From a virus: 22,015 bases of DNA. The DNA lies in IMG/VR virus record IMGVR_UViG_3300028844_000968, positions 1-22,015 of that record; one strand, written 5' to 3'. Positions 1,681 through 22,015 of the stretch are shown in pieces. The notes below the pieces were generated by a model. That model saw nothing but the letters and a program-made list of their open reading frames with translations, did no database searches and was not told the DNA's origin. Both the position numbers and the translations under genes were made by a program. Within the stretch, counting starts at the first letter, position 1. Each line of letters opens with the position of its first letter.

Positions 1681-4545
1681 TTATGGTGTCATCGGGTAAG
1701 TCATCGACGGCGGTAGTGTCACGTTTGGCGTAATTTGAATTGCTTCTTCTTTACGCCTTTCATTTATATGACTACTTAACTCGTCACGGTATTTATCGCG
1801 AATTTTTTTTATGTCAGGCGACGCTCGACGGTTATTGACCTGCCCTTTAAATAACTCGGCATGTACTTCCTGCCTGGCTTTAATCATTACTTTCTCAATC
1901 ATTGCGCCTCTTTCCTCGCCTACTCTTGCGTCACGGAATATGCGAGTCTCGACCAATCGCTCCAGGTATTTCTTTCTGCGTTTACCAAGAGCGACTTTGT
2001 AATCATGGAAGAACCAACCAGTTGAATCGATCTGAAACATATCGAGTTCAATGCTGTCTTCGTTATCCATAAACTTATGCGTCACTGTTGCCAGTCGAGG
2101 AGTCTTGTCCTCGATACTGTTCTCAATAAAGTGCATCGCCAGGTCTGAATTTTGTCTCGCTGCGGAGTAAGTCAAAGGTGATAAAGCGTGCATAAATAAC
2201 AATGGTTCCGACACCAAAACATCGTTTCCGAACATGTCGATACTCGGCGGGACAGACTCATTAAAGTACGGCAGTCTTGCTTTTGCTCTCATAAACAATT
2301 CGCTCAAAAAGTCACCGCTTCTGGCATCGCGAACCACAGCATTACCTTTTTGGAATCGCTCAATGTCTTGAGTTGTTTTTGCTAACCAGTTCGGAACAAA
2401 ACTAGAACCGAACCTCGCTCCCCATCTTTGAACTTTGTTAATCGAACTTTCGTCGCTAGTGCCTTTGAAATCGAGAAGGTCTATCAACTGGGTAAAGCCA
2501 GTCATAAAGGATCGATCCATATAGTATTCAGCCATTCCCAAAATCATTCCGGTTGCAATGTCTGACTTGGCTTCTGCGTCGTACTGATTGGTATACAGTT
2601 CCATCGCGTTTGCTACCGTTCCTATCATCTGACCGAACGGATCAAAACGGTTATACGAAATGTAGTTTCCATCTATATAAACGGAGTACGGTTTAATACC
2701 TGATGCTTCCCAGGCTGCACGCATTTTCCAGTTTTTCGGTCCTGCTCCAGTAATCAATGGTCGATGAACTTTGTTACCGTTCTCATCTTCGCCATAGTTG
2801 TTCCACATCATGTAGGCAATTCCCATGCCTGTAGACCCCATCGATATACGGGCAACAGCCAGGTCGCGTGCCGGACCCGCTTTCTTTAGGTCTGCCCAGA
2901 CTGAAGGCATTGCTAAACCAAACGGGCTACGCTGCATTCCATACTTGATGATGTTTGTAGGTGTACGAACAAACGGTAGAAACAAACGACCAACAGGCAT
3001 GCGAGAAAAATCTAAAACACCCTGTTGCATTCGGGCAGGTAATATCGCGCCAGAATAGGCAGACTTCTGTAATGAATTAGTAAAGGTTTGATACCTGGCA
3101 AACTGTTGCGCGTTCATGTGCATGTCTGCCGGAGGGTTTTCCAAGATGCTTGCAACCCTGTCATCAAACGCTTTACCACTCAATCCTTCCTGGTATGCCT
3201 GGCGTGATGCCAATGCTTTCATCTCGCCGACATATCCAAATGCTTTAAAAAACTCATCTTCTGCTTCAAGAAAACGACTAGGCAATCGAATGTAATTCTT
3301 TCCTAGAAAATCAACTGCTCTACCAAGAGGACCGCCCTCGCGTAGACCTAACTGTTCTGCTGCGACAGCAGGTTGTCTTGGTAATTGACCGCCCTTGCGA
3401 TTAGATGGATCAAGTAATTGTCCTTGCAAACTACCTGCATCGCCATCGCTATGACGCATGGCATCAGCAAACGCTTTAAATCCGAACTTCCAGGACTCAA
3501 GCCATCCACTTGCCATAGCATTTGCTTCGGTAAACGTCACTCGATTTTGAGCATCTACTGGTAAACCAGATAACTCCATTGATCGCCGGACTAATCCAAC
3601 GGTTGCTGCACCGTACCTTTCAGCAACGCCCAGTCCTGCGTTAAGTAGGTTGCCACCAATATTGAGCGCATGAGTAGACGGGGCTGATAACAGACCGTTA
3701 ATCCATACTTCAACTACGGCGTTCCAGGTTCTTGTATACCAAGCACCTCGCGCAATCTTCGCAATCTTTTTGGGATCACCTTTTGCATCGGTAATTAACT
3801 GCGCTATTTTTTGAGTCGCTCCTTTGCCACCCATGTTTTCCATCAGTGAATCAAAGTCCACCATTGATAGATCATTTGATCCAACTGGAATCTGCATAGC
3901 GTTTAGTGTGCGTGCTGCTTCACGAACAGCACCTTGGACACGACGTTGCAGTGCAACGTAGTTTGCTACCTTACGTCTGAACATCCACAGTTCTTCTGTG
4001 TCTGTACTCGCACGACTAGAAATTGCCTTAGCTGCTTTAGTAAGTTCGTCTGCGCCTTGCACCATCAACATCCGCGCACGGGTCAACTGCGTAGAGTTCA
4101 GTGCTGCGCTTGCAGGTTTAGCCAGTAATTCATTTAAAGAATAGTTTTCTTCGTTGGTTGGATCGACTGCACGCGCCCTTGTTGTTTCATGTGATTGTGG
4201 TACGCGATAGCGACTGTTCGGACTGTAACTATCAAAGACAATCTCGCTAGTCCCATCAATCAAACCTTTAATATCTTCTTCGGTATGTATCGCAGCAAGA
4301 CCAAAGTTCCGTGTTTCAGTTCTGCCAGGGTCAATGAATCGACCAACAGGCGTTGATTGCAGGATCGCATCGGCATCTTCCATCGGCGCAGCATCGGCTC
4401 GACCTTTGTAATTTGCCAGGCTATCTATCTTAGGAAACGGCACACGACCTGCTACCATTACAGGCTCTTGTTCCTGCTCTTGCTGTGGCATTTCATCCGG
4501 CTGTATCGGATTGATAACGGGTTCAACTGTGTTGTCTATTGCCAT
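1681..4545 (-). CDS. Large internal virion / ejection protein with LPD38-like polyvalent-protein region
   Basis: This 954-residue protein starts at ATG 4545, which overlaps the previous stop (TAATG). After a Gln/Glu/Pro-rich N-terminus (1-35) and a helical region (130-280), residues 275-300 carry WNAVVEVWINGLLSAPSTHALN. Further on are FLEAEDEFFKAFGYV (about 425-439), FARYQTFTNSLQ (about 482-493), LFLPFVRTPTNIIKYGMQRSPFG (about 521-543), RDLAVARI (about 560-567) and Y.RFDPFGQMIGTVA (about 631-645). This series matches, from memory, the LPD38-type region of phage large polyvalent proteins. The position between internal-core genes and the fibre, and its size, fit the T7 gp16 slot: a core protein ejected into the host during DNA entry. 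No lysozyme-type transglycosylase motif was recognised. The charged C-terminus (about 840-940) is rich in Lys/Arg/Glu helices. Virion location is inference. Confidence 0.7.
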   Translation of the reverse strand: MAIDNTVEPVINPIQPDEMPQQEQEQEPVMVAGRVPFPKIDSLANYKGRADAAPMEDADAILQSTPVGRFIDPGRTETRNFGLAAIHTEEDIKGLIDGTSEIVFDSYSPNSRYRVPQSHETTRARAVDPTNEENYSLNELLAKPASAALNSTQLTRARMLMVQGADELTKAAKAISSRASTDTEELWMFRRKVANYVALQRRVQGAVREAARTLNAMQIPVGSNDLSMVDFDSLMENMGGKGATQKIAQLITDAKGDPKKIAKIARGAWYTRTWNAVVEVWINGLLSAPSTHALNIGGNLLNAGLGVAERYGAATVGLVRRSMELSGLPVDAQNRVTFTEANAMASGWLESWKFGFKAFADAMRHSDGDAGSLQGQLLDPSNRKGGQLPRQPAVAAEQLGLREGGPLGRAVDFLGKNYIRLPSRFLEAEDEFFKAFGYVGEMKALASRQAYQEGLSGKAFDDRVASILENPPADMHMNAQQFARYQTFTNSLQKSAYSGAILPARMQQGVLDFSRMPVGRLFLPFVRTPTNIIKYGMQRSPFGLAMPSVWADLKKAGPARDLAVARISMGSTGMGIAYMMWNNYGEDENGNKVHRPLITGAGPKNWKMRAAWEASGIKPYSVYIDGNYISYNRFDPFGQMIGTVANAMELYTNQYDAEAKSDIATGMILGMAEYYMDRSFMTGFTQLIDLLDFKGTSDESSINKVQRWGARFGSSFVPNWLAKTTQDIERFQKGNAVVRDARSGDFLSELFMRAKARLPYFNESVPPSIDMFGNDVLVSEPLLFMHALSPLTYSAARQNSDLAMHFIENSIEDKTPRLATVTHKFMDNEDSIELDMFQIDSTGWFFHDYKVALGKRRKKYLERLVETRIFRDARVGEERGAMIEKVMIKARQEVHAELFKGQVNNRRASPDIKKIRDKYRDELSSHINERRKEEAIQITPNVTLPPSMTYPMTP

Positions 4546-7211
4546 TACGCAACCATCCTTTCTTGCTCGTTGTCGTCATCGTCACCGTTCTGCGTCAACG
4601 GTATTCCGTTCTCCATAAAGTCTTGTCGCATCTCAGGCGTAATATCGAAGTACCAGACCTCGATGTTCCCTCGCGTTTCCATAAATTGTTTTGCTGCTTC
4701 TTCAGATGGAAGTGGACCGAAAGATTGTTTGTTGCCTCGGTTGTTGAGGTATTCAACATAAAATCCTGATCTGTCTTCTGTCATCTCAAAATCTTTAGAT
4801 TCGATTCGAGTCTTTCCTACCTTTGCGCCATAGCGTTTCAAAAGTTTCTGAGAAAACTTTGGCATTTTCTGGTCATACAAAACCGAAAAGCCTTTGGAGG
4901 GCTGTGTGCGTACGTCTTTAAAAACTATTTGCTGCGGATAAATTGCGTGATCGCGCGACCCCCTTGAACTTCTAGAAGAAATTAACGCGCTTTCTCGCAG
5001 TTCTTCGAACTCTTTTCTTTGCGCCTCACTTAACGTCCGAAAAGTTCTATCACGCATAAGGTCCATATTTCTAACGTCGTAAGTTATTTCATTTTTGTTA
5101 TCTGCTAGATCGGTGTACTTAATTGTGATTTTGTATTTATCCTCAATCTGAAGTGATACTTCTGGATAAAATTCAACTGACTTATAGCGATCTGCTTGAG
5201 TGTTTGCAGTTGTCCAGGTAATACGCTCGATACTTGGATCGCGTAGTGCTTCTGCAATAGCACGCTTAAACATCATCTCATCCCAGTTTTTACCAAAAGG
5301 CGCAAATGGAAGTGGGTCTTTAATGACATCTTTTACTCGTTTAGGAGTAACACCGTCAGGATAAAGATTGTCTACCAAGAACGGCGGTATATACTGACCT
5401 TCTAAATTTTTGCTATTGCCTTCGCTAAACTTCTCGACAAATTCAAATAAATCTTCCTCGGACTCAAACAGTTTCGGACTCTCATCCGGTCTTCTACTAT
5501 CTCTCAAAAACCATTGATCTCCGCTGTCGCCCATCGTGCGAGAAGAATTACCATAGATTAATCGTGTTTCGTTTGATCCACGTTTCGGCATCATTCCAGA
5601 ATCTACTGCTGCGTGATGCCAGTCGCTTTGAATTTCATCTATATGAAACGCCATTTTGCTATCGACGATTCGCTCTTCGGTTCGTGCGTGAGCAAAATAA
5701 TTATGTTCTGGAAAATGACTATGTGTATAAGAGTCAGATGTTCGTCCTGGACCGTTCCCGCTTTCCCACATAATTAAAATATTTTTTGGGTTTGTACCTT
5801 CTTCTCTTGCTTGAACGCTAATTGTGTAGTCAGGGAACCACATCGAATTAACTCCCTCGCCATCATATACTTCGTCTATTTCTCCTGATTCAATCGCGTG
5901 CAAGTTTGCTGCTTGAGTAGTGGACTGCAAATCATAAATGTCGTGATCGTATTGATTAACATCAATTGCTACTCCTCTCGGAGTTTCAGCCGTATATCCG
6001 AACTCATCATTGCCCGTAATCATGTAACCGTATTGGTTGTAGGTAACCAAGACAGGATTATCTTCATACGCTGCTTCTGCTTGTTCTAAAAAATAATCTT
6101 CCAAATCTGCTTCTTCGTAAATAAAGGTTCCTCTTGATCCATTGTCTGCTACGACATAACGATCACTACTTCCAAGTCGTAGATCATCCAACTCGCCTTC
6201 AACCATGTCGGCTTCAACCATGTAAGAACGCGCATGGTCATCCATCCAATCCCTAAACGAATCTATATTTGAGGTGTGGTTTTTAAAATCTTCTCTTAAA
6301 TATTCAATATGATGTTCAATTTCATTGTCCTGCCACGGTCCTCTTTCTATTTCTGGATCGATCCAATCAAAAGAATTTAGTTGCTCGTCTATATCGGCTT
6401 GTTTCCCTTGGTAAATCCGTTCGTATAATTGAAGACGATTGGTATCGATAAAACCTAATAACTTTTCGCGTGTAATCGAACCTTTTATTGAATCAAGAAA
6501 ATCGAACACACCTATCTCATCAGCATCTTTCTTTGGATAGATTGCGTTCTTTGGTCGAATTTCTCCAAGACCTTCAGTTAATATTTTTTTCCAATAACCT
6601 GCGTCGCCTTTTGCCTGTTCTGACATTTCGACTACACGACGCGCAGGAGAGAAAAACCCAACATCGTCAACCATGTATTGAGTAACACGCTTGCTGTTTT
6701 GAATAATCTTTTTATCGATGACGCGATAGGACTCGCCAGTATTCATAGCGTTGTCACCAGTAGTACGATCCATCCCTGGCACTCCTTCTGGGGAAATCAA
6801 TAGATCAACTTCCCTAGCACGCATCATGTCTATGAACATTGGGTCATCACCCAGTTCATTAATGTCTACGCCACCATCACCGAATCGTTCCATAAGTGAC
6901 TGTGTTTCCTGCGGATCAAGATCAAACTTAGATTGCAATTGATTAACAGTGACATATTCCTGATCGAAGGTAACAGGATTTCTAGGCGTTACAGTCATTT
7001 CAAAGACTTGCGGATAACCAGGTGGTCGATCTTCTGGATTAACAATATCCCTTCTGTCTGCGTAGGCATCCGCAACCTTGCGATTACTTGTCCCACCTAC
7101 AGTCGGACGATCCTGGGTGTCTGTTACTTTTTTATCTGCACCCCAGATACCGCGATATATTTTCATCGCTACATCGACAGCAGGTTGTATAACTCCCGAA
7201 TATCTGCCCAT
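4545..7211 (-). CDS. Large polyvalent-type protein (EIQSDWH / TTANTQADRY domain), putative ejected virion protein
   Basis: This 888-residue protein starts at ATG 7211 (TAATG overlap with the 290-aa gene). It carries, in order, the landmarks of a domain common in large phage/prophage proteins: VDDVGFFSPARRVVEM (181-196), ITREKLLGFIDTNRLQLYERIY (246-267), MAFHIDEIQSDWH (520-532), FGKNWDEMMFKRAI (639-652), ERITWTTANTQADRY (662-676), LYDQKMPKFSQKLLKRYGAKVG (778-799), and WYFDITPEMRQDFMENGIPL (853-872). I know this block from multi-domain 'polyvalent' proteins of phages and conjugative elements, which are thought to be delivered with DNA; its chemistry is unknown to me. The protein is very acidic, with an Asp run near the C-terminus. 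Position within the internal-core cluster suggests packaging in the virion. Delivery and an anti-host role are inference; no catalytic residues can be assigned. Confidence 0.65.
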   Translation of the reverse strand: MGRYSGVIQPAVDVAMKIYRGIWGADKKVTDTQDRPTVGGTSNRKVADAYADRRDIVNPEDRPPGYPQVFEMTVTPRNPVTFDQEYVTVNQLQSKFDLDPQETQSLMERFGDGGVDINELGDDPMFIDMMRAREVDLLISPEGVPGMDRTTGDNAMNTGESYRVIDKKIIQNSKRVTQYMVDDVGFFSPARRVVEMSEQAKGDAGYWKKILTEGLGEIRPKNAIYPKKDADEIGVFDFLDSIKGSITREKLLGFIDTNRLQLYERIYQGKQADIDEQLNSFDWIDPEIERGPWQDNEIEHHIEYLREDFKNHTSNIDSFRDWMDDHARSYMVEADMVEGELDDLRLGSSDRYVVADNGSRGTFIYEEADLEDYFLEQAEAAYEDNPVLVTYNQYGYMITGNDEFGYTAETPRGVAIDVNQYDHDIYDLQSTTQAANLHAIESGEIDEVYDGEGVNSMWFPDYTISVQAREEGTNPKNILIMWESGNGPGRTSDSYTHSHFPEHNYFAHARTEERIVDSKMAFHIDEIQSDWHHAAVDSGMMPKRGSNETRLIYGNSSRTMGDSGDQWFLRDSRRPDESPKLFESEEDLFEFVEKFSEGNSKNLEGQYIPPFLVDNLYPDGVTPKRVKDVIKDPLPFAPFGKNWDEMMFKRAIAEALRDPSIERITWTTANTQADRYKSVEFYPEVSLQIEDKYKITIKYTDLADNKNEITYDVRNMDLMRDRTFRTLSEAQRKEFEELRESALISSRSSRGSRDHAIYPQQIVFKDVRTQPSKGFSVLYDQKMPKFSQKLLKRYGAKVGKTRIESKDFEMTEDRSGFYVEYLNNRGNKQSFGPLPSEEAAKQFMETRGNIEVWYFDITPEMRQDFMENGIPLTQNGDDDDNEQERMVA

Positions 7212-8083
7212 TATTCGTTACCTTCCGAATTATTTTTATTCAAACGGTTAACTACTTTTTTTCCTACATAGTCAACTGCCTTACCTCCACCTAGACCAAA
7301 CGCAGTTCCTAATACCCCACCCATAACTGGTTGCGATTTGTCATACGGTCTATCTTCGGCGCGATGCGCTATTGATTCCTTACTGCCTAGTTCGGCTGCG
7401 CCATAAATTCCTGATTCAACCCCGCCTACAGTGGCTCCTATTAGGTTGCGTCTTTTGATTTCTGCTCCTGCTCGATTAACAATATCTTGTAAACGAGTCA
7501 TCACGACGTTCTTTGCAAGACCTTTTGCTACTGCCTTTCCTGCGATAAAACCAAGACCACCAAACATAAAAAATTCTGCTGCGCCTAGCGCAACCGCTCT
7601 TACACCCTGCATAACCGTGGTGTCAGAAGCGTCGTACATTTTTAGCGCATCGTTAAACGCTTTGAGATCAGAAAAAGGTGCGTCTTTCATTTTGGATAGA
7701 TCGATCATCATTCCGCTCAACGAGTTGTTAAACGTGCCTAGTTTTTGAGACAACCATTCCGCTTTATCTTGCGGGGATGATTTACCTTTTGACGGCATAC
7801 CAAACTTGGATGTCATGTAGGACGGCAAGCGTGCATCGCCTTGCCCGTAGGCATTCCATAAGTGTTCTGCCAGGCGCTGATATGTCGGGTCTTTATGTAA
7901 CTGTTCAGCAGTGAGCGTCGGTGTTTGTGCTGCTGCGCGTCGTTCTTTTTCTAATCGATGCTGCTCTTGATCGTCTAACATTCTTTGATAGTCGCCAGGC
8001 AACTTCATAAACGGCGTCTTTGACATATGCGCTTGTTCCGCATCTGCCTCGTACATACTTAGTAATGATTCTTTATCGTTCAT
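7211..8083 (-). CDS. Glycine-zipper-rich hydrophobic protein, putative internal virion protein
   Basis: Not recognised by family. The 290-residue protein starts at ATG 8083, overlapping the previous stop (ATGA), and ends in TAATG with the 888-aa gene. Residues 1-160 are soluble and helical, with a charged patch (RLEKERRAAA, 43-52). Three glycine-spaced hydrophobic stretches follow: about 163-186 (ALGAAEFFMFGGLGFIAGKA), 213-231 (NLIGATVGGVESGIYGAAE) and 253-275 (VMGGVLGTAFGLGGGKAV). Glycine-zipper segments of this kind are typical of proteins that insert into membranes. Placed among the ejection proteins, it could contribute to the trans-envelope conduit, as gp14/gp15/gp16 do in T7. It could instead simply be a hydrophobic core protein. 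No signal peptide is evident. Function is inference from location and composition. Confidence 0.6.
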   Translation of the reverse strand: MNDKESLLSMYEADAEQAHMSKTPFMKLPGDYQRMLDDQEQHRLEKERRAAAQTPTLTAEQLHKDPTYQRLAEHLWNAYGQGDARLPSYMTSKFGMPSKGKSSPQDKAEWLSQKLGTFNNSLSGMMIDLSKMKDAPFSDLKAFNDALKMYDASDTTVMQGVRAVALGAAEFFMFGGLGFIAGKAVAKGLAKNVVMTRLQDIVNRAGAEIKRRNLIGATVGGVESGIYGAAELGSKESIAHRAEDRPYDKSQPVMGGVLGTAFGLGGGKAVDYVGKKVVNRLNKNNSEGNE

Positions 8084-9873
8084 TCAAGAAGACCTGGTGT
8101 ATTCGTTGTCATCCAAACATCTTCGAGATAGTTAGATTGGAAAGAATCATCTCCGCTTACTTCATTTATCTCGGTCATCATTAACTGGATCGCTTCAATC
8201 CGGCGAATCATTTCTCTAGATTGCGCTTCCCACTCCATTCCAGAATCTGCTTTTTCTGTAACATCTCTATTTTCTTTTTCTATCTTGAACATATCCCTAG
8301 TCAAACCAATATCAATTTCGCCTATTCGATTAATACTGGTTACTCGATTGCCTTCGCTATCGACCATCCACTTTTCTAACTTGGCTGTTTGAAGGATTAA
8401 CTTTTCTGCGTAACCTACAAGATCACCATCGGGATTATTGCGTCGCCACTTATCAAGTTTCATTAGCGATCCTGTAAAGATGCCTCTGACTCTTGCGCCG
8501 TACTCGCTATCCAAATAACTTTCGAGGTTTGCTTGATTAGCACCAGGTCCGACAATCGCAGACATAAGAATTGCTTTTGCTAATTGTTCTTCACCACTGC
8601 GTCGGTCTTGTACCTTGCTATTTAATTTGCCTAGCAAAGTTGATGCGTCAGACTTATTTAATTTTTGATTCTTCTGTTGATTGACAATAACTGATCTAAT
8701 AAATGAATCATCGTCGCTATCAAATCCACCGCGCTCCATAATCAACAAATCAAGTTGACCGTAGATGTCTCGATCAGTTGCGCCAGTCTGTTGCGCTTGC
8801 TGCGCCATCTCAACAAGGTCATCAAAGCGTTCGCCGTACATATCCCGTGCGCCAACCTTTGATAACTCGACAGTTAATAATTCTTGAGGATTATCAGACT
8901 TGAACGCTTGCTCGATAGTAATCATGTATGACGCTTCAGATGCCCTCTTGTCTCTAGCAACAAGCATCTTTGATGTTTCTTGATACAACTTAAACGCATC
9001 CGCTTTTGCACTCTCAGGCAACAATAAGTCTGGTTTATCCATGTAGTCGAGAGTTTCTTCCCATCTCGTTTCAAGCAACTCTTGATTAAATTTTCTATAT
9101 TCTGGATTTGTAATAGCCGCCGATGTTTGGAAGTCAATGTAGCCATTTTCAATAACAGAATAATTAACCCGCTTAATATTCTTTGCTGCGTTCTCTAGCA
9201 ACGGTGCTGCCGGAAGTCCTGCCTTAATTGCGTTTGTCGTGCGAAGTTCTATTGAACTAACGCTTGAATCTAAAGAATTTGATTCCTCGATACGAGCAGT
9301 AGCCAGGTCAATCTTCTGATCGCGTTGAAACTTGTAGATGTCCTCGATGTTTTGTTTGTCAAGAGTGTTTCGTTTCTGAGCAAAAATCTTTTTTGCTTGG
9401 CTGCTTGTAAGGTATACGTCGTTTAGTTCTGAAACGAACTGATCCGACACCTGCACATAATCTGCATCGAGTGCTTCCCAATCTCGCGATTCGTTAAATC
9501 CCAATACAGAATCAGGTGAATCAGTGCGCTCTAGGTTGCTGCCCAAGATTGTGCGAGTCGCTTTGAAGTCAAGCATGTGACGCATGTACGCCTGGTATGC
9601 TGCGTTACCACTGGCTTCGGCTTCGACTGCATCTATCTGCGCTTGTACCTGACGCGCCTTCTGAAGATAGTTACCAACAGTACGGGTCAAGTTGTTAGCA
9701 ACAGATTGATTTGCGCTTGCTGTGGTCAATGCCTGGCGAGTTATCTGATCGCTCGTTACCTCTGCAACGAATCGCTGCTGCGGTGAAGCCATCATCGCAG
9801 GTGCACTTCTTGTTGCTGCGGTTCTCATCCGCAGATTTAAACCGCCTGTTGCTTGAAATTCTGGTAACTTCAT
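8080..9873 (-). CDS. Internal virion protein (T7 gp15-like position), 597 aa
   Basis: The frame is open up to TTG 9882, but ATG 9873 overlaps the stop of the gp14-like gene (ATGA) and has purine-rich AGGTTGG upstream, so I take that start. The protein is almost entirely helical and polar. Near residue 30 are PQQRFVAEV, then runs such as LTTASANQSVANNLTRTVGNYLQKARQ (about 45-75). The Gln/Ala-rich helices resemble the stacked helical repeats of internal-core ejection proteins. No enzymatic motif, TM segment or signal peptide was seen. Its place directly after the gp14-like gene and before two giant proteins is the same as T7 gp15 (747 aa). It is probably a middle ring of the core and is ejected on infection. 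Sequence similarity to gp15 is not demonstrable by eye. Confidence 0.6.
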   Translation of the reverse strand: MKLPEFQATGGLNLRMRTAATRSAPAMMASPQQRFVAEVTSDQITRQALTTASANQSVANNLTRTVGNYLQKARQVQAQIDAVEAEASGNAAYQAYMRHMLDFKATRTILGSNLERTDSPDSVLGFNESRDWEALDADYVQVSDQFVSELNDVYLTSSQAKKIFAQKRNTLDKQNIEDIYKFQRDQKIDLATARIEESNSLDSSVSSIELRTTNAIKAGLPAAPLLENAAKNIKRVNYSVIENGYIDFQTSAAITNPEYRKFNQELLETRWEETLDYMDKPDLLLPESAKADAFKLYQETSKMLVARDKRASEASYMITIEQAFKSDNPQELLTVELSKVGARDMYGERFDDLVEMAQQAQQTGATDRDIYGQLDLLIMERGGFDSDDDSFIRSVIVNQQKNQKLNKSDASTLLGKLNSKVQDRRSGEEQLAKAILMSAIVGPGANQANLESYLDSEYGARVRGIFTGSLMKLDKWRRNNPDGDLVGYAEKLILQTAKLEKWMVDSEGNRVTSINRIGEIDIGLTRDMFKIEKENRDVTEKADSGMEWEAQSREMIRRIEAIQLMMTEINEVSGDDSFQSNYLEDVWMTTNTPGLLE

Positions 9874-10592
9874 GCCCACCAACCTGCTGCGTTAATCAGA
9901 CTGTTGTACATTGCCGAGTTCGCTTGCGTTCTTAATGTTGATGCGTTCATCTCTGCGCCACGCTCCATTGACCTGGCTCTCGCCACGGCTTCGTTCCAGG
10001 CGATCTGACTATTGAGTGCTTCGTTAACTACCGTCATCTCTGCACGCTGATCTGTATCCAGGCGAATAAGATTGGCTTGATCGCGTTGATCTTGTAAGTA
10101 ACCAAAGGCAGAAAGCTTTTCTACGCCACGTTTAAACTGACGATCAAACTTTGCTTCGGATACTTGCTGATTTAGATAGTGAAGATTCGATCCTTGATTG
10201 ACGCTGATACCGCTCGACCCTTGCCTGGCTCGTATCTCACCTGCTAGTTGTCGGGTCTGTAGTTCTGCCTGGTAATCACCGTAAGCAGTTTGCAATCCCA
10301 TCAGTGCGAAGTTGCGATTAGCGGTATCGTCTTTTGCCTGGGCATTTGCATACCCGACTTTGCGTATTACCCCTGCGTTATATTCCGCAGACGCTTTTGA
10401 AATTACTCGGTTGGCTTCTGTTACCGCTATCAGATCAGACGCATTAGCAGCACCTATCTCCATAGCCAACGCTGCTTGATCTCTCAAGTCACTGCTTTGA
10501 TTGGCTCCAAATAAAATACTAAGACCTGTTCCTAAACCTGGAATCCAATAATCTGCAAGAGGTAACAAAGTTTTGATATCGATGTCAGCCAT
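9870..10592 (-). CDS. Internal virion protein (T7 gp14-like)
   Basis: This 240-residue protein starts at ATG 10592 (TAATG overlap with the nozzle gene). It has a short hydrophobic/glycine segment near the N-terminus (about 15-30, YWIPGLGTGLSILFG) followed by a long Ala/Gln-rich helical body with very regular spacing. It contains GEIRARQGSSGISVNQGSN (about 137-155), a loop common in gp14-type proteins of marine podoviruses. T7 gp14 is 196 aa, forms a ring of the internal core next to the portal, and is ejected to form the outer-membrane part of the channel. Location directly after tail tube B also fits T7 order, where gp13/gp14 follow gp12. Fold similarity is by recognition and context, not alignment. 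Confidence 0.75.
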   Translation of the reverse strand: MADIDIKTLLPLADYWIPGLGTGLSILFGANQSSDLRDQAALAMEIGAANASDLIAVTEANRVISKASAEYNAGVIRKVGYANAQAKDDTANRNFALMGLQTAYGDYQAELQTRQLAGEIRARQGSSGISVNQGSNLHYLNQQVSEAKFDRQFKRGVEKLSAFGYLQDQRDQANLIRLDTDQRAEMTVVNEALNSQIAWNEAVARARSMERGAEMNASTLRTQANSAMYNSLINAAGWWA

Positions 10593-14958: not shown

Positions 14959-16540
14959 TCTCTGCCTCCGCTTGTTGTTGCATCATCATCTGTTGCTGCT
15001 GTTGTTGCTGCTGCATGCGTTGAGCGCGTGCCTCTTGCATCTCGTCTGCACCTTTGCGTACGTCAGCAGGGACACCGTGTCGGTCTGCAAGTTTTATTGC
15101 TACCTTATCGAAGTCGATAGCGTCCAAGATTTCTGGATTGAGTTGCGCCATTTGACTAAGCGAACCCACCCATCGTTCGATTGCTTGCACGTCACCCATC
15201 TTCTGAGCGCGTGCCAGGGGTGACACATACTCGATGTCCAGTTCCCCGCCTTGATAGGCGATCACGGACTCAGGTGGTTCTGGGAATTGCATCGCTCGAT
15301 ACATCATGTAGAACACACGCTCGACCATTGGCGTGAGCAGTTCAGATTGCAGTCGTCCAAGCGTTGCACCCAACAGGCGCTGCATCATCTCGTATCGAAT
15401 CTGCACCTCAGTTGCTGTCGCATTAGGTCGATCAGGTAACTCAAGTTGATCTGAATAGAACATCATGCGAATCGATTGACGTAACTCCGCTGACTTAATC
15501 TGAGACACGTCCCATCGTGTACCGTTCTCAAGCACACGCAGTTCACCCATCTCACGCATTAACGTCAGACCGCCTGGCTCCAAGTGCAGATCACCAATTA
15601 TTGCGTTGCGTCCTGCCATGTACGGTGGGTCGATGGACTTTTCCCATCCCGTTAACTCAAGACGCTTCGCTTCATTCAGCGTCGTGATGTCTGCCCTGGC
15701 AATCAAGCCAGGTGAATAACCCCAGGCTTCGCCCGATGTCTTCGACCAACGTGGAATGAAGTACGGCAGTTCGTAGTACCCGCCCTCCTCAATGATCGCT
15801 TGATCCTCCAGGGAGATGTACTTCTCCATGAACGGTCTATCCTGCGGGACTTTCATGTCGTTGTCTGGGTACGATCTATCGGTACTTGGAGAGACACAGT
15901 GCAGGAACTTAAACATCTGATCGGGGTTCTTGTTTAACGCTGCCGTAACCTTTGGCATGTCAGCGTCTTGCCATCGCTCCGATGCTGCACGCGCTGTTAA
16001 CTCAAAACATCGATACACGGTATCAACCTTTCCGGATGCTGACTCGCTGATACATAGATCAGACAAGTGAACCGTATCGAAACGCAAACCACCGAACGCT
16101 GTCGGTGCGTTACCTTCTTCCAAGAACAAGCAGCCAGTACCGAATGCTCCCAGGTCAAGGTACAACTCGTTGACCTGCGTATTAAAGTTGCTCTCACCTA
16201 ACGCATCGAACATGCGATCCGTGCATTCTTCTAGCCACTCGTTTGCTGCGTCATCTTCAGCAAGTTCTGTATCTCTAAATCGAACAGAGAACCAGGGCGA
16301 TGCAGGTGACGTTAACGCCATGTGCAGTGATGCTGCCAGGACGTTGTTCGCATGTATCGCTGTGCTGTCGTATATCTTCTCGGTTCTTGATCGATCCCCT
16401 TTTGATCTCTGCGTCACGAAGTCTGCACGGTTGGGCATGACATACATTGCCACGTCTTCCCAATCCCGATCCCAATTAGATCGAGCAGCCTTGAGTGATT
16501 CGTAACGCTTTACGATTTGCTCTACGGAACCCGAAGCCAT
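14939..16540 (-). CDS. Portal / head-tail connector protein (T7 gp8-like)
   Basis: This 533-residue protein matches T7 gp8 in length (536 aa) and opening: SNWDRDWEDVAMYVMPNRADF (about 21-41), STAIHANNVLAASLHMALTSP (about 59-79) and SPWFSVRFRD (about 81-90). PDRPNATATEVQIRYEMMQRLLGATLGRLQSELLTPMVERVF (about 371-412) is the conserved stem/wing region of gp8-type connectors. It forms the dodecameric ring at the packaging vertex, and docks TerL, the internal core and the tail adaptor. The C-terminus (509-523) is a Gln/Met tract, unusual for the family. ATG 16540 overlaps the previous stop by one base (TAATG). Confidence 0.95.
   Translation of the reverse strand: MASGSVEQIVKRYESLKAARSNWDRDWEDVAMYVMPNRADFVTQRSKGDRSRTEKIYDSTAIHANNVLAASLHMALTSPASPWFSVRFRDTELAEDDAANEWLEECTDRMFDALGESNFNTQVNELYLDLGAFGTGCLFLEEGNAPTAFGGLRFDTVHLSDLCISESASGKVDTVYRCFELTARAASERWQDADMPKVTAALNKNPDQMFKFLHCVSPSTDRSYPDNDMKVPQDRPFMEKYISLEDQAIIEEGGYYELPYFIPRWSKTSGEAWGYSPGLIARADITTLNEAKRLELTGWEKSIDPPYMAGRNAIIGDLHLEPGGLTLMREMGELRVLENGTRWDVSQIKSAELRQSIRMMFYSDQLELPDRPNATATEVQIRYEMMQRLLGATLGRLQSELLTPMVERVFYMMYRAMQFPEPPESVIAYQGGELDIEYVSPLARAQKMGDVQAIERWVGSLSQMAQLNPEILDAIDFDKVAIKLADRHGVPADVRKGADEMQEARAQRMQQQQQQQQMMMQQQAEAESAGQDQ
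14972..15013 (-). repeat. Poly-Gln/Met tract at the portal C-terminus
   Basis: Residues 510-523 of the portal read eight Gln, three Met, three Gln, encoded by mixed CAA/CAG codons with three ATG codons between. The tract is a near-trinucleotide repeat and may vary in length. Confidence 0.75.
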
Positions 16541-17817
16541 TAGCCGATCACCGCTGAGTAGAGACTAGAACCTGCACGCTTTGCATCAAACACATACTTG
16601 TACACCCAGTTCGTTACACCTGCGCTCCTGGCTTGTGCCGGATTGCGGTACACCGTACCCGTTGCAGGATCGACAACTGAGTTAGCCGTGCCTAGATTGC
16701 GTGCGCCCAGGTTAGTTAAGAATGTTTGTCTCAACGCATCATCGGACAAGGGTCGCTTGCTTAGAATCGTATCTTCCAATCCATAAGAATCTTCACTGCT
16801 TGATGCCGGATCATCCATGCTATCGGCACGCTCAGTAAGCGCATCTAGCAACGACTCGTATGTTACGTCCATAGAACCACCGAACACAGGGTCATATACC
16901 GTTGCACCTGATGAACCGCTCGATCCGCTACTGCCTGACGACGAACCACTGTATCCCGAACCGCCACCGATCTCAGGCTCTGTTTCGATTTGTGGTGAAT
17001 CGTCTGTCACTGTTTCTTCTTCGTCCTCCTTTTCTTGAGGATCGATCTGCGGACCGTCAGGTGCATCATCATTTCCTTCTGCGCCGATAGGTGCGTCGAA
17101 GTTTGCAGCACGGTCAGCGTCATCAAGACCCATGTAACCCGCTAACGCACTGGGTTCAAATCGAGCAGCCATTCGTTGACCTGGAGTACGACCTGGATTG
17201 TTTACAGTTTCTGACTCGACCACCGCTTCTGGAGTTTCAAGTGCAGCCCTAGTTGCTTGCTGACTTCCACCTAAAGCGGGACCAGTGTCTGCTACTGCTG
17301 ATCTTGTTGCTGCTTGACTACCACCTAATGCGGGAGAATTATTGCTCTTCGTCGCATTACTGCTTGATGATCTACTGCCACCGCTGTTTGTGTTTCCGCT
17401 TTGCGCTGCATTACTTCTGGTCGCTGCCTGACTACCACCCAGTGTTGATCTTGTAGCATTATTGCTCGATGACCTACTGCCAGTGCTTCGAGTTGCATTA
17501 CTTCTGGTCGCTGCCTGACTCCCGCCAAGTGTTCTGCCACCGCTGTTCGTGTTCCCACTCGCTGCTGCTGCGCTTCTCGTTGCTGCTTGACTACCACCTA
17601 ACCTGCCTCCTGATGCGCTAGCATTTCCGCTAGATGATGCGTTACCCCCACGGTTTCCGCGATTACCCCCGCGCTGCCCTGCGGGATTGCCCTCGTTCTT
17701 GCCAGTGCCAGGTCCGACACCGCCACCATCACCGCCACCCCCATCACCAAAACATAAATGCTGTATACGAGCAAGGCTGTACTGGTCGTTTTCAAATCTA
17801 AAAGTCTTTCGTTCCAT
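16540..17817 (-). CDS. Gly/Ser-rich protein with five LGGSQAATR repeats, between TerL cluster and portal
   Basis: Not recognised. The 425-residue protein starts at ATG 17817 with a good SD (GGAG, 8 bases upstream). It has four parts. A short N-terminus (1-24) precedes a Gly/Asn/Ser-rich low-complexity stretch. Five copies of LGGSQ[A/Q]ATR follow at residues 73-81, 97-105, 126-134, 164-172 and 182-190. Next is an acidic linker (240-285, QEKEDEEETVTDD) plus a Ser-Gly run (286-304). The C-terminus (305-425) is ordered, with DALTERADSMDD and NWVYKYVFDAKRAGSSLYSAVIG. The repeats read as short linear motifs presented on a disordered chain. The place between terminase and portal suggests a head, packaging or DNA-ejection role, but nothing in the sequence proves it. 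There is no signal peptide or TM segment. Confidence 0.7.
   Translation of the reverse strand: MERKTFRFENDQYSLARIQHLCFGDGGGGDGGGVGPGTGKNEGNPAGQRGGNRGNRGGNASSSGNASASGGRLGGSQAATRSAAAASGNTNSGGRTLGGSQAATRSNATRSTGSRSSSNNATRSTLGGSQAATRSNAAQSGNTNSGGSRSSSSNATKSNNSPALGGSQAATRSAVADTGPALGGSQQATRAALETPEAVVESETVNNPGRTPGQRMAARFEPSALAGYMGLDDADRAANFDAPIGAEGNDDAPDGPQIDPQEKEDEEETVTDDSPQIETEPEIGGGSGYSGSSSGSSGSSGSSGATVYDPVFGGSMDVTYESLLDALTERADSMDDPASSSEDSYGLEDTILSKRPLSDDALRQTFLTNLGARNLGTANSVVDPATGTVYRNPAQARSAGVTNWVYKYVFDAKRAGSSLYSAVIG
17248..17601 (-). repeat. Five interspersed LGGSQ[A/Q]ATR motif repeats
   Basis: Five near-identical nine-residue motifs lie 24, 29, 38 and 18 residues apart, separated by variable Ser/Asn/Thr spacers. 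Two spacers share SGNTNSGG. Motif sequence is kept while spacing and spacers drift, which argues for selection on the motif rather than simple tandem slippage. Confidence 0.8.
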
Positions 17818-21246: not shown

Positions 21247-21404
21247 TTGCGATACTCCATCAATGTCATGCCAAACTTTTTGGTGAACCAATCTGCCCAA
21301 GAGATGCGACTGATTGGAGTGAGTTCATGTCGGTGTTCGTATGCAAACTTTGCTGCGTAATGTCTAAGTCTTTTGAATTGCTTTTGATGTTCGTCAATCT
21401 GCAC
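21210..21404 (-). CDS. Small hypothetical protein (64 aa) after the initiator
   Basis: The start is GTG 21404, with an AGGGAG SD about 7 bases upstream, overlapping the initiator stop by 11 bases. The sequence is charged and helical (EHQKQFKRLRHYAAKFAYEHRHEL), then ISRISWADWFTKKFGMTLMEYRKWLDKEKE. The WADWFxxxFGxTLxEY portion looks like a folded helical motif rather than a shadow. No membrane segment. It occupies the place where lambdoid phages have the helicase loader (P), but it is far too short and shows no similarity that I can see. Confidence 0.6.
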   Translation of the reverse strand: MQIDEHQKQFKRLRHYAAKFAYEHRHELTPISRISWADWFTKKFGMTLMEYRKWLDKEKESQGH

Positions 21405-22015
21405 GCATCCGCTCCCTTACTGCGGATGACAAACGTGCGCGGTACATCGGGAATGATTCGCCAGGCTTTGGGTCAGGTAAGCGATGCCACCTTGCATGGT
21501 CTGCCAGTTTGGAATCATCTCGTGGTAGGTCAGCCCAAGATGGAATGCTTGCGCTTGATTGCTTGCGCTCACCTGGCTTTGACTCCTTGCGTACCCAGTT
21601 ACGCCACACTGCAAACCAATCTCTTTTGGTAGCGCGAGAACCAGGCACGGAAATCCAGTAGTCTCGGAAGGAATCTGCGACGCTGCGGGGATCGAGATCA
21701 GGACGATTCTCTTTGCACCAGGCAGCGTATTCGTCTGGCAACTTCCAATCTTCAGAGAGTCGGGAGGCGTTAGCCTCTCTCTGTTTAATATTACGTTTCT
21801 TTATTACTGTTTCTATGTTGTGATCCTGCGTCACATGGGCATGTGATCCTGCGTCACTACCCTTGTGATCCTGCGTCACATGGGTCTGTGACTTAGACTC
21901 ATATGGGATGACGTATTTGCTTGATCGTTTGCCACCGTTGTCTCGGTACTGGTGGGTGACAATTAGAACTCCGGCTTCTTCTAGTCGAGCAACCACCCTG
22001 TTGACTGTCTCGCGG
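21394..22015 (-). CDS. O-like replication initiator with winged-helix N-terminus (5' end beyond window)
   Basis: The frame is open to the window edge, so the start lies outside; the GTG at 21996 is internal. The visible N-terminus RETVNRVVARLEEAGVLIV is the recognition-helix end of a winged helix-turn-helix, and GGKRSSKYVIPY is its wing. A hydrophilic linker carries VTQDH twice; this is where the DNA iterons lie. The C-terminal part DEYAAWCKENRPDLDPRSVADSFRDYWI, then TKRDWFAVWRNWVRKE, is the family-typical helical region of phage replisome-organiser proteins that contact the helicase or loader. The last 60 residues are Pro/Asp/Arg-rich. Identity as an initiator is from these motifs; self-origin binding is inferred from the embedded repeats. 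Confidence 0.8.
   Translation of the reverse strand, partial: RETVNRVVARLEEAGVLIVTHQYRDNGGKRSSKYVIPYESKSQTHVTQDHKGSDAGSHAHVTQDHNIETVIKKRNIKQREANASRLSEDWKLPDEYAAWCKENRPDLDPRSVADSFRDYWISVPGSRATKRDWFAVWRNWVRKESKPGERKQSSASIPSWADLPRDDSKLADHARWHRLPDPKPGESFPMYRARLSSAVRERMRAD
21780..21819. other. AT-rich candidate unwinding element next to iterons
   Basis: About 75% A+T by hand count over 40 bases (TTTAATATTACGTTTCTTTA and following), directly flanking the iteron array on the 3' side relative to the initiator gene. Neighbouring coding DNA has roughly balanced composition. The arrangement is that of a DNA unwinding element. Confidence 0.6.
21820..21907. repeat. ori: Iteron array (candidate replication origin) inside the initiator gene
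   Basis: On the plus strand GTGATCCTGCGTCAC occurs exactly at 21820-21834, 21843-21857 and 21865-21879, with a degenerate fourth unit at 21888-21902 (GTGACTTAGACTCAT). Spacings are 23, 22 and 23 bases, about two helical turns. Units 1, 3 and 4 continue into ATGGG. Each unit has inverted GTGA/TCAC ends. Because of the 22/23 spacing, units 1 and 3 encode VTQDH while unit 2 is read in another frame (SDAGS), so the DNA and not the protein is conserved. The layout matches lambda ori within gene O. Confidence 0.78.

Follow-up and report, generated by a model that had tools for sequence, protein, structure and literature searches.

We analysed a 22-kb virus fragment (22,015 nucleotides, hereafter the window), at the edge of which the gene of a predicted replication initiator is truncated at its 5' end (21394-22015, minus strand; the C-terminal 206 of 257 amino acids). 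The complete gene for the 257-amino-acid protein is found at positions 8029-8802 of L002 (IMGVR_UViG_3300001346_001173), a contig that overlaps the window with 98.7% identity over 5 kb and extends it 8.2 kb upstream; together the two cover about 30 kb of a genome that is incomplete. Some 290 bp into the coding sequence lie three perfect copies of the 16-bp repeat TGTGATCCTGCGTCAC, all on the minus strand, with starts 23 and 22 bp apart in window coordinate order. In gene order these are iteron 1 (21864-21879), iteron 2 (21842-21857) and iteron 3 (21819-21834), which share the 15-bp core GTGATCCTGCGTCAC and span 21819-21879. A sequence-only reading of this DNA had described three perfect 15-bp repeats at 22-23 bp spacing inside the initiator gene, and they proved identical even to 16 bp. 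The degenerate fourth copy that it had added did not hold up: the segment at 21887-21902 (minus strand) agrees with the repeat at only 9 of 16 positions, and most of it is absent from the two relatives in which the other three repeats persist, so that it is probably non-functional. On the gene's 3' side, iteron 3 adjoins the 40-bp AT-rich stretch noted in the same reading (21780-21819, minus strand), a candidate unwinding element with 77.5% AT, which places it in the top 0.35% among the 40-bp windows of L002. This is also the gene's least stable DNA, as the least stable 50 bp start at L002 8371 and, in all three close relatives, begin within the last iteron or a little ahead of it, reaching into the AT stretch.

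Codon shuffling of the initiator gene, done 2000 times, never produced a 15-mer present even twice, and within the window the pattern GTGA-N7-TCAC occurs at the three iteron sites only. The 15-mer is near-palindromic, with 10 of its 15 positions self-complementary. The two outer copies encode the peptide HVTQDH, whereas the middle one, which had rightly been said to lie in another reading frame, encodes SDAGSH. The related phages L003 and L058, in which the gene is about 72-76% identical at the nucleotide level, keep the three repeats at the same site with 22/23-bp spacing. The 15-mers of iterons 2 and 3 are identical in both, and that of iteron 1 is identical in L003 and matches at 14 of 15 positions in L058; the spacers vary among relatives whereas the 15-mers hardly do. 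L002 and L003 agree in every one of the 16 iteron codons, compared with 87 of the 175 amino-acid-conserved codons elsewhere in the gene (Fisher p=2.9e-5), and the other two pairs of relatives gave p=0.0007 and 0.0055. These values support the earlier proposal that selection acts on the iteron DNA beyond its action on the protein.

In the predicted structure of the initiator, a winged-helix domain (residues 3-86; partial coding sequence at 21910-22015, minus strand, the rest lying beyond the window) is followed by a disordered linker (residues 91-131, pLDDT<50) and a helical C-terminal domain (residues ~129-257; coding sequence at 21394-21783, minus strand), which the structure and a family profile suggest to be DnaT-like. 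In this model the linker is the product of the iterons and the AT-rich DNA. The N-terminal part matches HTH_36 (PF13730; residues 14-66, E 1.4e-14), and the protein carries the PHROG label replication initiation / primosomal protein. Fold matches of the winged helix, all of them weak (E 0.0017 for the best to 0.02), include the DnaD N-terminal domain 2v79 and the initiator entries 4pql, 4pt7 and 5kbj, which we take to be RepA_N-type initiator structures; a RepA_N domain is absent from the Pfam matches of the initiator, the resemblance being one of fold only. PF17948 (DnaT) is matched by 4 of the 32 members of the C-terminal family (best E 1.3e-5), with no match in the 257-amino-acid initiator itself, and DnaT structures occur among the weak C-terminal fold matches (E 7-10, probability about 0.1); the family appears to be distantly DnaT-like.

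An O-like initiator with a lambda-type origin had been proposed for this locus, and that proposal is supported in so far as iterons and AT-rich DNA lie inside the gene of an O-like initiator. Membership of the lambda O family fared less well. The Phage_rep_O N-terminal profiles PF04492 / TIGR01610 have no match in the initiator, the lambda O control giving 5.7e-36, and direct profile comparison with lambda O was weak (probability 2.3%, E 0.021). Three PHROG families labelled 'replication initiation O-like' (phrog_391, 678 and 345) are matched by both the initiator and lambda O, partly over different regions. By the Pfam comparison, the initiator is outside the lambda O N-terminal family PF04492.

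Repeats inside the gene are also found among homologues. In a non-redundant set of 44, scored against codon-shuffle controls, 22 carry at least three in-gene repeats above the controls, mostly in the linker, about 15 of these being convincing by eye and some, such as those of L025, L045, L064 and L066, resembling low-complexity coding repeats; by the same codon-shuffle-controlled method, no repeats were detectable in 15 of the 44 distant homologues. The repeats are positioned between the N-terminal DNA-binding domain and the DnaT-like domain, reach 4-7 copies per array and differ in sequence by subfamily (e.g. TCACCCCCGAAC, ACCCCCGCCAAA, GGGACCATT, CGAACCACAGTT). DUF1376 appears as an alternative N-terminal domain before the same C-terminal domain in 3 of 15 members. 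As a separate observation, the initiators of L026, L038, L044, L048, L061 and L067 have a common DnaT-like C-terminus and differing N-terminal domains, often with in-gene repeats of their own, which looks like modular exchange.

The upstream part of L002 encodes a tyrosine integrase, a YqaJ exonuclease, an ERF recombinase, an S24 CI-type repressor and a Cro/YdaS-like protein besides the full initiator, with divergent early operons and the order CI-Cro-initiator. Contig L058/L060 shares this gene order, which there continues into terminase, portal, capsid and tail genes. Beside the integrase gene lies the 3' half of a tRNA-Glu, including CCA (L002 about 2066-2114, L060 3512-3582), which is 95.7% identical to E. 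coli tRNA-Glu and likely represents the phage attachment site (attP). From this attP-like site, our one basis for a host assignment, the host is likely gammaproteobacterial; no relatives were found in the bacterial genomes scanned in the host search, and a nucleotide search against phage records gave no match. Between CI and Cro are copies of a palindrome, TACCACnnnnGTGGTA (L002 6458 and 7742; L060 9558, differing by one arm base, and 9624; L003 902), which are likely the CI/Cro operators. Since L002 carries the integrase, the attP-like tRNA-Glu, the recombinases, CI, the Cro-like gene and the initiator, the phage is, by its gene content, temperate with a lambdoid early region. The label 'T7-like phage' given to it before therefore fits the virion block, which follows the T7-type short-tail plan, but not the early region. 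The portal is nearest to those of Pelagibacter phage Baldr and Vibrio VP2/VP5-type phages (38-45% identity), and the phage appears to be a short-tailed, temperate one known from environmental DNA alone.

The repeats might be read as operators of a regulator, be it CI, Cro or an autorepressing initiator, and not as an origin. They do lie early in the rightward operon, and a near-palindromic 15-mer is like many operators; however, a different palindrome, TACCACnnnnGTGGTA, is present at the expected CI/Cro operator sites, the iterons are far into the coding sequence and adjoin its least stable DNA, and homologues have whole arrays at the same place. We consider the operator explanation very unlikely and rejected it for a repressor, as the separate palindrome would have that role. 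It seems extremely unlikely that a repetitive protein linker gave rise to the repeats incidentally, through selection for HVTQDH or recent tandem duplication, and that they have no function as DNA. A disordered linker would tolerate duplications, and the distant homologues L045, L064 and L066 have simple codon repeats at that place, but a shared peptide does not account for the frame of the middle copy, for iteron codons kept beyond amino-acid conservation or for spacers that change between relatives while the 15-mers barely do. The frame change and the codon conservation led us to reject the protein-repeat explanation.

An initiator with in-gene repeats could also serve chiefly for plasmid-like maintenance of the prophage and not for lytic replication. 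Distant homologues (28% identity) in Mycobacterium phages are annotated as RepA-like initiators, and mycobacterial prophages of the RepA type replicate outside the chromosome, with an origin suspected upstream of or within repA. Here, however, a tyrosine integrase sits beside the attP-like tRNA-Glu site, and the genes scanned included none recognisable as partition genes, which leaves this role highly improbable.

We consider it very probable that the linker-coding part of the initiator gene holds a lambda-type origin, with the winged helix as the iteron-binding part, melting on the AT-rich side and a C-terminus that helps recruit the host helicase. Its anatomy, conservation and gene context are observed directly; we infer iteron binding, AT melting and helicase recruitment by analogy with pSK41 (below), and the theta mode from the anatomy. 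The three iterons, near-palindromic 15-mers separated by about two turns of the helix, would be bound by the N-terminal winged helix, and the bound initiators would form an O-some-like complex and thereby destabilise the AT-rich stretch 3' of them. The exposed single strand may then be bound by the DnaT-like C-terminal domain, which may also, or instead, help recruit host DnaB, directly or via host DnaC, and theta replication of the circularised genome would begin after infection or induction. The theta-type, initiator-driven start that had been proposed from the sequence is supported to this extent by the anatomy of the locus.

DnaB_C and IstB/DnaC-type profiles had no match in the window, L002 or the relatives, and PF00476 (DNA_pol_A), which T7-type replication would call for along with a helicase-primase, had none in the window, L002 or L060, the genome being incomplete in both cases; the controls of the PF00940 RNA polymerase search were silent, which makes that search uninformative. 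By these profiles, the suggestion that helicase or loader genes might lie upstream of position 22015 was not borne out on L002, and since no loader was found the helicase recruitment step would lack a known phage partner. In both L002 and L060 the GC skew has its minimum close to the initiator, where the cumulative skew check proposed earlier would place an origin, but it is uninformative as independent evidence, since the skew follows gene orientation and transcription diverges at the initiator as well. More tentatively, and as a view less likely than not to be right, we envisage a one-protein, lambda-like system in a widespread group of temperate phages, in which a swappable cassette of DNA-binding domain plus iterons is combined with an invariant DnaT-like domain that engages the host replication-restart primosome (PriB/DnaT/DnaC), so that a phage helicase loader would be unneeded.

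Lambda and Stx phages (PMC7466680), SPP1 (PMC6316719) and pSK41 (PMC5703833) all have well-documented origins inside initiator genes, and short-tailed 933W is a further precedent, so that the locus is not a new type of system; rather, it is a well-supported further example of a known arrangement, which would function like lambda ori. As in lambda, the iterons occupy a central position in the initiator gene (spacing 20/24/23 in lambda, 22/23 here; PMC7466680), the AT-rich stretch is on their 3' side and the order is CI-Cro-initiator. Lambda differs in having four iterons of 18 bp and of other sequence, and an O protein that falls into PF04492, with P as the next gene, whereas the protein here has HTH_36 and a DnaT-like tail, and no loader gene was recognised. 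The plasmid pSK41 offers a close parallel in which this layout has been put to the test: its RepA_N-type Rep binds four boxes central in rep, which encode a dispensable linker between the winged-helix and primosome-interacting domains (PMC5703833). The hybrid Rep of pPR9 has the same HTH_36 (pfam13730) as the initiator here, and between pPR9 and pSK41 the N-terminal domain and the origin region differ together (PMC5703833). Both are plasmid systems with a DnaD-like C-terminal domain, in contrast to the DnaT-like one here.

In SPP1, oriL likewise has direct repeats and an AT-rich element within initiator gene 38, and its theta replication has been reconstituted in vitro (PMC6316719), but this phage itself encodes a helicase (gp40) and a loader (gp39), neither type of which was found here. 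Podovirus 933W also combines a short-tailed virion with a lambda-type origin (PMC8065619, PMC7466680), though with O/P-type replication genes, six iterons and a virion block and initiator other than those here. With this precedent, and with several distant contigs that carry a related initiator together with a related portal or terminase, the link of a lambda-type origin to a T7-like virion, pointed out earlier, is unsurprising.

The analysis provides a predicted replication origin and its cognate initiator for a group of uncultured temperate phages. Furthermore, it suggests that in-gene origins are seemingly common among initiators annotated just as 'replication initiation' or 'primosomal', and the repeats can serve directly to predict origins from sequence. 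With no recognised phage helicase loader, how the host helicase is loaded becomes a testable and moderately interesting question.

Downstream of the initiator are small ORFs and PDDEXK, HNH and dUTPase-like genes. Near the integrase end, a gene at L002 478-1494 and L060 1935-2957 has a Fis-type HTH and a weak match to calcineurin-like phosphoesterases. Three large late genes of the window (4545-7211, 7211-8083 and 8080-9882) have no Pfam or PHROG match and presumably encode internal virion proteins. The gene between terminase and portal (16540-17817) encodes repeats of the GGSQAATRS type, an array that seems not to be the same in the window as in L002, which has ambiguous bases there.
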